Source of the DNA: Thermoproteota archaeon | Lineage (GTDB): Archaea > Korarchaeota > JAOZGF01 > JAOZFZ01 | Length of the DNA: 64,000 bases | Assembly: GCA_027492035.1 (NCBI GenBank) | Contig: JAOZFT010000035.1 | Coordinates: 1-64,000 of the forward strand | Direction of reading: 5' to 3' | Shown: piece after piece, positions 49,017 to 56,649 of the stretch | Numbering within the stretch: position 1 is the first letter of the stretch | How the letters are laid out: each line of letters starts with the position of its first letter | Program-made: the position numbers and the translations under genes | Notes under the pieces: model-generated | Seen by the model: only the letters and a program-made list of their open reading frames with translations | What the model was told of the DNA's origin: nothing | Databases searched by the model: none

Positions 49017-49167
49017 CTTCTAAAATTGAACTTGCTGGGAAAGGAATATATTTAAAAATTTTCCCGGTTTTTTATAGAATCTAGAAAATGTAACCTAAAA
49101 ATTTCTCCCTTTTCCCGGAAATAACTCGGGGAAAATTGGTAGTTTTTGGTAGGTGAGTGGGTTAGGA

Positions 49168-49917
49168 ATGAAATGTCCTAATTGCGGTTTTGAAAACGCT
49201 GATAGCGCTAAGTTCTGTGGAAAATGTGGGTACCCTTTAACAAGTGGAGGAAAAGAACCTCCTACTCCTGAAACATCTGTTGTCTCAGCACCTACTTCTG
49301 CTTCACAGCCTCCCACTCTAACCCTTCCACAGACACAGCCTCAACTATCTACCTCTACGGCTCAAGCTATTCCTTCCTCATCTACGCATTTCGGTTTCAA
49401 AACATGCCCTAACTGTGGCTATATACTTCCACCGGAAGCTTTTTATTGTAGCGTATGTGGGACAGCACTCGAAAAAACCACTGAAAAAGTTGAAGAAGGA
49501 AAGGTTATTCCTGCCGGTGTGGAAAAATCAACTCTTTCGGATGAAGTTGGTAAACTGATTACTGAAAGAGAGAAGCTCATTGAGAAAAGGAAGAAATTAA
49601 GGGAACTTTTTGAAAAGAAAGAGGTTGATGAAGAACTTTATCTTAAACTCGACTCAGAATACTCTCAAAAACTAAACTCAGTTGTAAGTGAGCTGGACAG
49701 TAAAAAAGTTGCTGTGGACGTTAGGTTGGAGGAAGTGGAAAACATAATCCTTCAAAAGAAAAAAGAGATAGAAGAATTAAGGGTACGGATGAAACTTGGT
49801 GAAGTGCCTCAAGATGAATTCCTTAAAAAGAAAGAAGAAACTGAGAAATTGCTTAACACTTTAGAAAAGGAAAAATCAGTCCTTGAAAAATCAAGGGAAA
49901 TAATAAAAATAAGTTAA
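49168..49917 (+). CDS. double zinc-ribbon protein with coiled coil
   Basis: 249 residues. Two Cys4 zinc ribbons: CPNCGFENADSAKFCGKCG at the start and CPNCGYILPPEAFYCSVCG at about 80-98, split by a Thr/Pro/Ser/Gln linker of about 55 residues. Then a long charged coiled coil (about 125-249). The ORF opens at GTG 49153; I prefer ATG 49168 since the first ribbon begins there. Function unknown; it is the first of three neighbouring zinc-ribbon genes. Confidence 0.8.
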   Translation: MKCPNCGFENADSAKFCGKCGYPLTSGGKEPPTPETSVVSAPTSASQPPTLTLPQTQPQLSTSTAQAIPSSSTHFGFKTCPNCGYILPPEAFYCSVCGTALEKTTEKVEEGKVIPAGVEKSTLSDEVGKLITEREKLIEKRKKLRELFEKKEVDEELYLKLDSEYSQKLNSVVSELDSKKVAVDVRLEEVENIILQKKKEIEELRVRMKLGEVPQDEFLKKKEETEKLLNTLEKEKSVLEKSREIIKIS

Positions 49918-54179: not shown

Positions 54180-54572
54180 ATGTCGGAACAACTTTTACAA
54201 ATTGAAAATATTTTGAAGAAACTCACTTCAGCAGGAACAAAAATAACAAGTTCTTTACTGGTTACTTCAGAAGGGCTACCTATGGCTGGAGCCATCCCTG
54301 GAGAATATGAACAGGAATCTTTAGGGGCTATGGCGGCATTAATGCTTTCCATGAGTGATGAAGTAGCAGAGGAGCTGCTTAAAAGCAAAAGCGAACTAAG
54401 TATTGTTATGAATAATAAAGGATATGTAGTTTCTTCCAGGATAAATGATGACTTATCCTTGTTAGTGACAGCTAAACCTGAAGCTAAGTTAGGTTTACTA
54501 ATTTACTTTCTTAAAAAAGCATCTAAAGAAATAAAGGAAGCACTTGAAACAAAATCTTTAACTCTAACTTAA
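54180..54572 (+). CDS. roadblock/LC7 domain protein
   Basis: 130 residues forming one roadblock/LC7 fold: VTSEGLPMAGAIPGEYEQESLGAMAALMLSMSDEVAEEL then MNNKGYVVSSRINDDLSLLVTAKPEAKLGLLIYFLKKA. Such proteins dimerise and regulate small GTPases as MglB does. It converges on an MglA-like GTPase gene (54599), with a second roadblock gene beyond. Partner relation is inferred. Confidence 0.88.
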   Translation: MSEQLLQIENILKKLTSAGTKITSSLLVTSEGLPMAGAIPGEYEQESLGAMAALMLSMSDEVAEELLKSKSELSIVMNNKGYVVSSRINDDLSLLVTAKPEAKLGLLIYFLKKASKEIKEALETKSLTLT

Positions 54573-54598
54573 AAGGGTTTTTGAGAGTTTAAGGATCT

Positions 54599-55285
54599 CT
54601 AGGAAAAAGTGGACTGTATAGCTAGTAGGACAGATGCTAGAAAGGCTTCAATGGTTCCCTTCGCCTGAGTAGCAACTGTTTCATAAACTAAATAATTTTC
54701 TAAACGAAGATTCTTTATTAGAAAATCTGATGGGTAAATATTCCATAAATCCCTTTTGTTTAACTGAACTACAACCGGTATTTTTTTGTTCAGTTTTTCA
54801 CCGAAAAACCTTTTTAATTCCTCTAAACTTCTTTTGTTTTCAATAAATTTTTCTCTTTGGCTGTCAATCACAAAAACAATTGTATCTGCCCCCTTCACAA
54901 CAGGTGCTCTTAAAGGAGCGTAGAAATCCTGTCCAGTAGCTGCCCAACCATGAACTCCTAAATTGAAATCTCCTAACCAAGTCAAGTCCAATTGTATGCC
55001 AAATTTTTCAAGTACAGAACTAAGAATTTCTCTATTTAATGAAAAGAACTGGTAATCATAATACAGTGTCCTGCCTCCAGAAGTAGATATACTTATTGTT
55101 TTCGTAGATGTACAGTTCCGGTTTATAGTTTGTAAGTACCTTTTCACTGCATATAAACTGGTTGTTTTCCCTGATTCTCCACACCCGTAATAAACTAGTT
55201 TTAAATGGATTTCATGCTTCTTTACGTCTATTTGAACCAAGTGTTCCACCGAGATGTTTAAGAGCTGACTGTAGATCCTTTCCAA
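54599..55285 (-). CDS. MglA-like small GTPase
   Basis: 228 residues, a Ras-superfamily GTPase of the prokaryotic MglA group. P-loop YYGCGESGKTTSL (G34-T41), switch region STSGGRTLYYDYQF, AATGQDFY where MglA has TVPGQVFY, GADTIVFVIDSQ, and base motif NKRD (176-179). MglA with a roadblock GAP sets cell polarity or motility in bacteria. The ORF start overlaps the roadblock gene by 74 bases; TTG 55240 behind GGTGG may be the true start. Probably translationally coupled to it. Confidence 0.88.
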   Translation of the reverse strand: MERIYSQLLNISVEHLVQIDVKKHEIHLKLVYYGCGESGKTTSLYAVKRYLQTINRNCTSTKTISISTSGGRTLYYDYQFFSLNREILSSVLEKFGIQLDLTWLGDFNLGVHGWAATGQDFYAPLRAPVVKGADTIVFVIDSQREKFIENKRSLEELKRFFGEKLNKKIPVVVQLNKRDLWNIYPSDFLIKNLRLENYLVYETVATQAKGTIEAFLASVLLAIQSTFS

Positions 55286-55730
55286 TCCCGAATTTTTCCT
55301 TTAAAAGCATCTCGGTCTCTTCGATTTTTTCTCTTCTTTCAATAAGTAACTTTCTAATTTGAGGCAAGCTGTTTTTAACAGTTAACCTTAATAAACCCAA
55401 ATTAACTTTAGGTAGGGTCTTTATGACTAAAAGGGAGCTTTCCTCTACATCATAAATAAAAATCTTGGATGTTTCAGTTTCAGCAAGTATCTGTTCAGGA
55501 TCAGGTTCATTCATTATTTCATGTTGAGCTATGTGAGCACCGAAAATACCTGCACATGCAGATGAGAAATTAGCTAAAAAATCTTCTCCTAAATTAAAAG
55601 GAGTTATAGCAGGCAGAACACCATCTTTCCTAATAATTACAGCGAAAACAATGCCTGGAATATCATTTAACTTACTTAGCAGCGCCTTTAACTTGTTTTC
55701 ATTTTCAATTAATTCTCTACCAAACTCCAA
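55212..55730 (-). CDS. roadblock/LC7 domain protein (MglB-like)
   Basis: 172 residues. A roadblock domain (about 12-120; ITPFNLGEDFLANFSSACAGIFGAH and SSLLVIKTLPKVNLGLLRLTV) plus a helical, charged C-terminal extension of about 50 residues. Directly upstream of and overlapping the MglA-like GTPase gene, the usual order for a GTPase and its regulator. The extension is unusual and could mediate docking. Confidence 0.85.
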   Translation of the reverse strand: MEFGRELIENENKLKALLSKLNDIPGIVFAVIIRKDGVLPAITPFNLGEDFLANFSSACAGIFGAHIAQHEIMNEPDPEQILAETETSKIFIYDVEESSLLVIKTLPKVNLGLLRLTVKNSLPQIRKLLIERREKIEETEMLLKEKFGIGKDLQSALKHLGGTLGSNRRKEA

Positions 55731-56214: not shown

Positions 56215-56649
56215 GTGGATAGAAAAGTGAATTTGCAAATAAAATTGTCGAGTCCTTTCTTTTATGTAGGAAAAAACTTAAAAGGAGAGGTAGAAGTTGA
56301 ATGTGTTGGGGATATAGAGTTTGAGGAAATCAGATTAGAGTTTGAAGGCACCGAAAAAATCAATTTTCCATGTAGAGACTCTAATGTCTGTCCCTCCCCC
56401 ACTATCTTTTTGGCTTCCCAAATTTTTGAAACAAAGAGAAGAATAAAGGAGGGTAATAGAATAGTTTGTCCCTCCCAGATCAAAATACCTTTTGAACTTT
56501 TTATCCCCCCCTGGACTCCTCCAACTTATAGAGGAAAATACGTCCAAACAAATTATGTTTTGAGGGTTAAACTGATGAGGGAAGGGGTAACCTTATTTTC
56601 TAAAGAATTACCCATTAAAATTTTCCTTGCTCCCCCTGCAATAAGGTAA
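56215..56649 (+). CDS. arrestin-fold domain protein
   Basis: 144 residues built as one arrestin-like beta sandwich: FYVGKNLKGEVEVECVGDIEFEEIRLEFEGTEKI, then IPFELFIPPWTPPTYRGKYVQTNYVLRVKL. This is the N-terminal arrestin/Vps26/Spo0M pattern (P..PPTY.G.Y....Y.L.V). It has a single domain where eukaryotic arrestins have two. GTG start behind GGTGA. Lies next to the roadblock/GTPase genes on the other strand, so a trafficking- or signalling-like link is possible but unproved. Confidence 0.7.
   Translation: MDRKVNLQIKLSSPFFYVGKNLKGEVEVECVGDIEFEEIRLEFEGTEKINFPCRDSNVCPSPTIFLASQIFETKRRIKEGNRIVCPSQIKIPFELFIPPWTPPTYRGKYVQTNYVLRVKLMREGVTLFSKELPIKIFLAPPAIR

Follow-up and report, generated by a model that had tools for sequence, protein, structure and literature searches.

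Arrangement of the Three Genes

At positions 54180-55730 of the window, by which we mean the whole 64,000-nucleotide stretch of DNA analyzed here, three small genes lie side by side: a roadblock gene on the forward strand, an MglA-like GTPase gene that faces it on the reverse strand, and a second roadblock gene, also on the reverse strand, that overlaps the start of the GTPase gene (Table 1). A preliminary description had seen here a compact module of an MglA-like GTPase, with P-loop, NKRD and AATGQ instead of TVPGQ, overlapping an MglB-like gene with a C-terminal extension, on which a second roadblock gene converges. All of these features are present in the sequence, both roadblock proteins score above the Pfam Robl_LC7 cut-off of 23 bits, and the module itself is supported by sequence, by predicted fold, by gene order in a related genome and by the joint copying of the roadblock pair. 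The longest frame of the GTPase gene begins at TTG 55285. The start at TTG 55240 is preferred because of the aligned GTG at which the homologue in the related genome starts and of GGTGGA just upstream, and with this start the gene shares 29 bases (55212-55240) with the MglB-like gene. The stop codons of the two convergent genes are 26 bases apart.

Table 1. Genes and sequence features of the GTPase-roadblock locus (window coordinates).
Feature	Position	Strand	Basis
Convergent roadblock/LC7 protein, single-domain, generic roadblock type, 130 aa	54180..54572	+	Pfam Robl_LC7 26.8 bits; G001 orthologue, 40% identity, equal place and orientation
MglA-family small GTPase, 213 aa, TTG start	54599..55240	-	phmmer to MglA; AlphaFold2/Foldseek; G001 orthologue, 55% identity
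G4, NKRD	54749..54760	-	sequence
G3, AATGQ	54929..54943	-	sequence/alignment
Interswitch (beta2-beta3 loop) insert of 20 residues, for the most part helix (residues 70-79)	54974..55033	-	alignment and AlphaFold2 model
G2, RTLYYD (in GRTLYYD), with intrinsic Arg R57 and putative Mg-binding T58 and D62 (counterparts of MglA R53/T54/D58)	55055..55072	-	alignment with 51 relatives; roles from PMC6785124
G1/P-loop, GCGESGKT	55163..55186	-	sequence
Long, MglB-like roadblock protein (172 aa) extended at its C-terminus; gene overlaps that of the GTPase and is translated immediately before it	55212..55730	-	Robl_LC7 28.9 bits (residues 15-104); G001 orthologue, 55% identity
C-terminal extension of the long roadblock protein beyond the core, about 48 residues, 8 acidic and 12 basic	55212..55358	-	sequence

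Of the roughly 2,000 genes in the host genome (G000; 1.87 Mb in 42 contigs, 93% complete), five are roadblock genes, from which the chance that two of them flank one GTPase gene is about 5e-6. The closest genome with the trio, here called G001 (Thermoproteota archaeon isolate Flange_M5_B4, NCBI JAOZFL010000106.1), belongs to another genus of the host's family and keeps the three genes in identical order and with the identical overlap; the phylum sample around it is small and mostly from one family, which includes a single-contig genome of 1.6 Mb, and these are perhaps Korarchaeota-like archaea. Thus, given the low flanking probability and the recurrence of the whole trio in another genus, the grouping is more than chance, and the identical order in that genus argues that the arrangement is selected.

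Two other genes of the surroundings may be mentioned. A protein of 144 amino acids resembling Arrestin-N, Vps26 and Spo0M is encoded at 56215-56649, divergent from the roadblock-GTPase pair, and at 49153-49917 lies the gene for a double zinc-ribbon protein, which weakly matches a CdvA-like coiled coil. A role in anti-phage defense was considered and rejected, since PADLOC gave no match. A scan for sigma-70 promoters scored below the shuffle mean, and the sigma-70 model is not meaningful for archaea.

The GTPase and the MglA Family

Among solved structures, the best sequence match of the GTPase is MglA (phmmer, E 6e-22). Its AlphaFold2 model, built with 51 relatives, has a mean pLDDT of 94.1 and a pTM of 0.91, and the 14 best PDB matches retrieved with this model by Foldseek are all MglA, the top one being the MglA:GTPgammaS:MglB complex 6izw (TM 0.82 when normalized by the query and 0.91 by the target). 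Judged by homology and predicted fold, the protein is a member of the MglA family. Pfam Arf also matches it at 35.9 bits; an identity as an Arf or Rag GTPase was rejected because MglA is far closer by sequence and fold and because the G3 Asp is absent.

In M. xanthus MglA, Arg53 and Gln82 are active-site residues, and Mg is held by Thr54 and Asp58 (PMC6785124). Their counterparts in the window GTPase are R57, Q104, T58, and D62, respectively; T58, D62, and Q104 are invariant in the alignment of 51 sequences and R57 is nearly so. Ala replaces the G3 Asp, and the motif varies between this protein (AATGQ) and its relative in G001 (TASGQ), which might suggest a degenerate, non-cycling scaffold that binds GTP. 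Such a protein is very improbable: MglA also has no G3 Asp and yet hydrolyzes GTP, so that loss of this residue alone does not indicate an inactive protein, and the window GTPase retains the Gln, Arg, Thr, Asp, P-loop, and NKxD.

How does this GTPase fit into the known groups of MglA? Group 1 is defined by features including an intrinsic Arg that adjoins the Thr of G2 and TVPGQ in G3, while Groups 2-5 have GTPGQ in G3 and Thr replacing the Arg; in the survey of 2014, MglA proteins with the arginine finger (Group 1) were found solely in bacterial lineages (PMC4316618). The window GTPase carries the Arg beside the G2 Thr, in GRTLYYD, as Group 1 does. Its G3 is not TVPGQ, and neither is that of the G001 protein; nor does it have the GTPGQ and Thr of Groups 2-5. 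Because G3 departs from Group 1, and the Arg together with G3 from Groups 2-5, it is a member of neither as they were defined in 2014. In the bacterial MglA sample G3 reads TVPGQ or SVPGQ, and in most Asgard relatives SATGQD or a near form.

A further difference is the interswitch insert, shared by the G001 protein but by none of the Asgard or bacterial sequences in the alignment with 51 relatives. Among 394 archaeal genomes, only two have the full-length type with the insert, both of the host's family; the other strong matches come from Odinarchaeia and from genomes of 2.3-3.9 Mb, which are probably Asgard as well. The insert adjoins the face on which MglB docks. In M. xanthus, the Ct-helix of MglB binds a pocket made of alpha5, beta2, and the beta2-beta3 loop (PMC6785124), and by analogy the insert may remodel the docking site for a roadblock protein.

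In the phylogenetic tree, the GTPases of the window and G001 form their own branch (100/98), which lies outside both the clade of the bacterial MglA sample (99/97) and that of the Asgard SATGQ GTPases (97/93). They appear to represent a lineage separate from both, although the AU test does not reject joining the pair with either (p 0.33 each).

The Two Roadblock Proteins

The long roadblock protein answers to the description of an MglB as a roadblock/LC7 domain encoded beside an MglA, while its score with the NCBIfam MglB equivalog model is 14.9 bits against a cut-off of 200. MglB of the exchange type in M. xanthus is recognized by an extension of more than 15 residues, a D/E-rich Ct-helix, and a basic alpha5 in MglA. 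This acidic-basic signature is absent here: the extension is of mixed charge, and alpha5 has no Lys or Arg within the helix. The residues through which MglB makes its GAP contacts are Asn37 and Arg98, and by eye neither has a clear counterpart in either window roadblock protein.

A comparison with Asgard archaea is instructive. In 57 of the 63 Asgard SATGQ loci, a protein in which two roadblock domains are fused is encoded one or two genes upstream of the GTPase. Such a fusion is not found in the window, where the two roadblock proteins come from separate genes. With a model built for the N-terminal Asgard domain (RB-N), the long roadblock protein scores 42.9 bits, its G001 orthologue 36.8 and the host's other roadblock proteins at most 13.4. 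The model of the C-terminal one (RB-C) gives the convergent protein 29.7 bits, which is about the score of unrelated roadblock proteins. A one-to-one mapping of the two proteins on the two Asgard domains therefore works only for the long one, and the convergent one is generic.

Is the convergent roadblock protein then a partner of this GTPase at all? The overlapping pair alone might be the functional unit, a homodimeric MglB with its MglA, while the convergent protein serves another GTPase. Overlap and co-direction join just these two genes, and the convergent protein has more in common with the host's roadblock proteins C21a (58.9 bits) and C9 (42.6 bits) than with the long one (5 bits), besides its unspecific match to RB-C. 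We regard this as unlikely, because the convergent gene occupies the equal place in another genus and has been copied there together with the long type: contig C59 of G001 has a second set, in which one roadblock gene of each type, convergent and long, is accompanied by a wHTH gene but by no GTPase gene. The strongest argument for pairing of the two roadblock proteins is this co-copying. The wHTH gene also stands upstream of the G001 trio, and it is absent from the host genome.

In 49 of the 63 Asgard loci, one gene, for a conserved protein of about 300 amino acids, separates the double-roadblock and GTPase genes. This protein (L049:1905-2801, alignment A7) has no confident Pfam family and is a candidate third component; it is found in the Odinarchaeia control genome and has no match in G000 or G001. 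The AlphaFold2 model of the Odinarchaeia double-roadblock protein (pLDDT 84, pTM 0.80) consists of two roadblock folds and resembles homodimers of MglB and of archaeal roadblock proteins, and more loosely Mon1-Ccz1; LAMTOR folds are also among its likenesses. Close to a SATGQ operon in Lokiarchaeia, a second MglA-like GTPase is encoded (L049:3902-4588), with TVAGQ and with Ser replacing the Arg finger.

Comparison with Known Systems

With MglA/MglB of M. xanthus and Thermus thermophilus (Group 1), the locus shares the fold, the Arg finger with its Thr and Asp neighbors, the catalytic Gln, and an adjoining gene for a roadblock partner with a C-terminal extension. It differs from them in having AATGQ rather than TVPGQ, the interswitch insert, a second roadblock gene and an archaeal host, in lacking the pairing of an acidic Ct-helix with a basic alpha5, and in the position of its GTPase outside the bacterial clade. 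The Asgard SATGQ operons are similar to it in the xATGQD-type G3, in the GRTL(F/Y) Arg finger, in two roadblock domains per GTPase and in the likeness of the long roadblock protein to their N-terminal domain, whereas separate convergent roadblock genes, the insert, the want of the 300-residue protein and a GTPase outside the Asgard clade set the window locus apart. From its sequence, the locus would work like MglA/MglB but is not an operon of the Asgard type; an earlier description may exist outside the open-licence literature.

Other systems are similar in part. Prometheoarchaeum MK-D1 has MglA-like GTPases and roadblock proteins in its genome, and its survey distinguishes a small MglA-like group by predicted structure; the available part of that survey describes no trio of the window kind (PMC10933270). 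In the bipartite GAP of MglB and RomY, a second protein likewise joins MglB in acting on MglA, but MglB alone is named there as a roadblock protein (PMC9481161), while both partners in the window are roadblock proteins. A Rup-type GTPase gene on contig C9 of the host also overlaps a roadblock gene; this GTPase is of another family, with GTPGQ in G3 and no Arg finger.

A Possible Switch on a Two-Roadblock Platform

We consider that the trio encodes a GTPase switch of the MglA/MglB kind that acts on an asymmetric platform of two roadblock proteins, with a probability of about 0.62. The GTPase would cycle between GDP and GTP as a Ras-like switch and, in the GTP state, would dock by its beta2 face on a roadblock dimer. 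As in MglA, docking would order the switches so that its own Arg57 and Gln104 can hydrolyze GTP. The long roadblock protein, from the overlapping gene, would be the MglB-like partner for GAP or exchange action, and its C-terminal extension probably reaches the remodeled interswitch pocket that bears the insert. The convergent protein is probably a second partner that the system cannot do without. Most likely it would pair with the long protein in an asymmetric heterodimer; alternatively, it would form a second dimer of the platform. Binding among the three proteins, the GAP or exchange action and the heterodimer are what we infer from homology and gene conservation.

It is to be noted that the two protomers of the M. 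xanthus MglB homodimer differ in their roles, the Ct-helix of one serving exchange and the other contributing to hydrolysis (PMC11016934). By analogy, two different roadblock genes could fix an asymmetry of this type. A more specific version would see here a third, archaeal branch of Arg-finger MglA, in which an armed roadblock protein for exchange and an armless one for hydrolysis dock via the interswitch helix and control type IV pili; taken as a whole, this is quite doubtful.

The two roadblock proteins might instead be a membrane or enzyme platform as in Ragulator, which recruits the GTPase for nutrient or membrane signaling without any GAP role. Roadblock heterodimers do act as such a platform in Ragulator. 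The fold of the Asgard two-domain protein has likenesses to LAMTOR and Mon1-Ccz1 as well, and a genome of the host's order (G002) has the arrangement roadblock-GTPase-roadblock with another GTPase. What makes this scaffold improbable is the GTPase, which is MglA-like and not Rag-like, and whose self-sufficient catalytic residues fit hydrolysis triggered by roadblock proteins. The locus in G002 (contig C264, L162:1504-2749) has its three genes co-directional, with TPGH in G3, His standing for Gln, and is a second arrangement of one GTPase with two roadblock proteins.

One form of the Arg-finger type of MglA is found in this archaeon from outside the Asgard group, and another is spread among Asgard archaea; both forms have two roadblock domains for every GTPase. 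This type therefore offers a simple test system for a possible origin of two-roadblock regulators like Ragulator or TRAPP-like platforms from a one-GTPase switch, and also for whether archaea place surface filaments with such switches.

Possible Outputs and Neighboring Loci

The preliminary description took the trio for a module of polarity or motility. Of this, a link to surface structures retains indirect support: the gene just upstream of the G001 trio, on one contig, is for a homologue of the type IV pilin UpsA, archaeal type IV pilus loci often encode roadblock proteins (PMC4858521), and M. xanthus MglA stimulates type IV pili (PMC9481161). An archaellum as the output was rejected, since no archaellin was found in G000 or G001. 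The window trio has no adjacent pilin gene. Our best guess for the output, and a tentative one, is that the switch locally controls type IV pili or some other surface structure. The relation once suggested to the secretion locus of the window finds no support, because that locus, at 27-33 kb, is separated from the trio by over 20 kb in which unrelated genes lie.

Relatives of the UpsA-like pilin in the host lie at C9:585-607 kb, and the first two of them adjoin a FlaK-like prepilin peptidase gene and have a type IV filament locus at no more than about 20 kb. The Rup-like GTPase of C9 overlaps a roadblock protein with a long acidic tail (L160:7084-8338), and this pair is also found in G001 (L163). 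On C9 there is also an SMC-type ATPase (L157:14995-17850) whose P-loop, by eye, is apparently split by an intein-like insert (GPNGSGKCVKGDTLI ... HNS).
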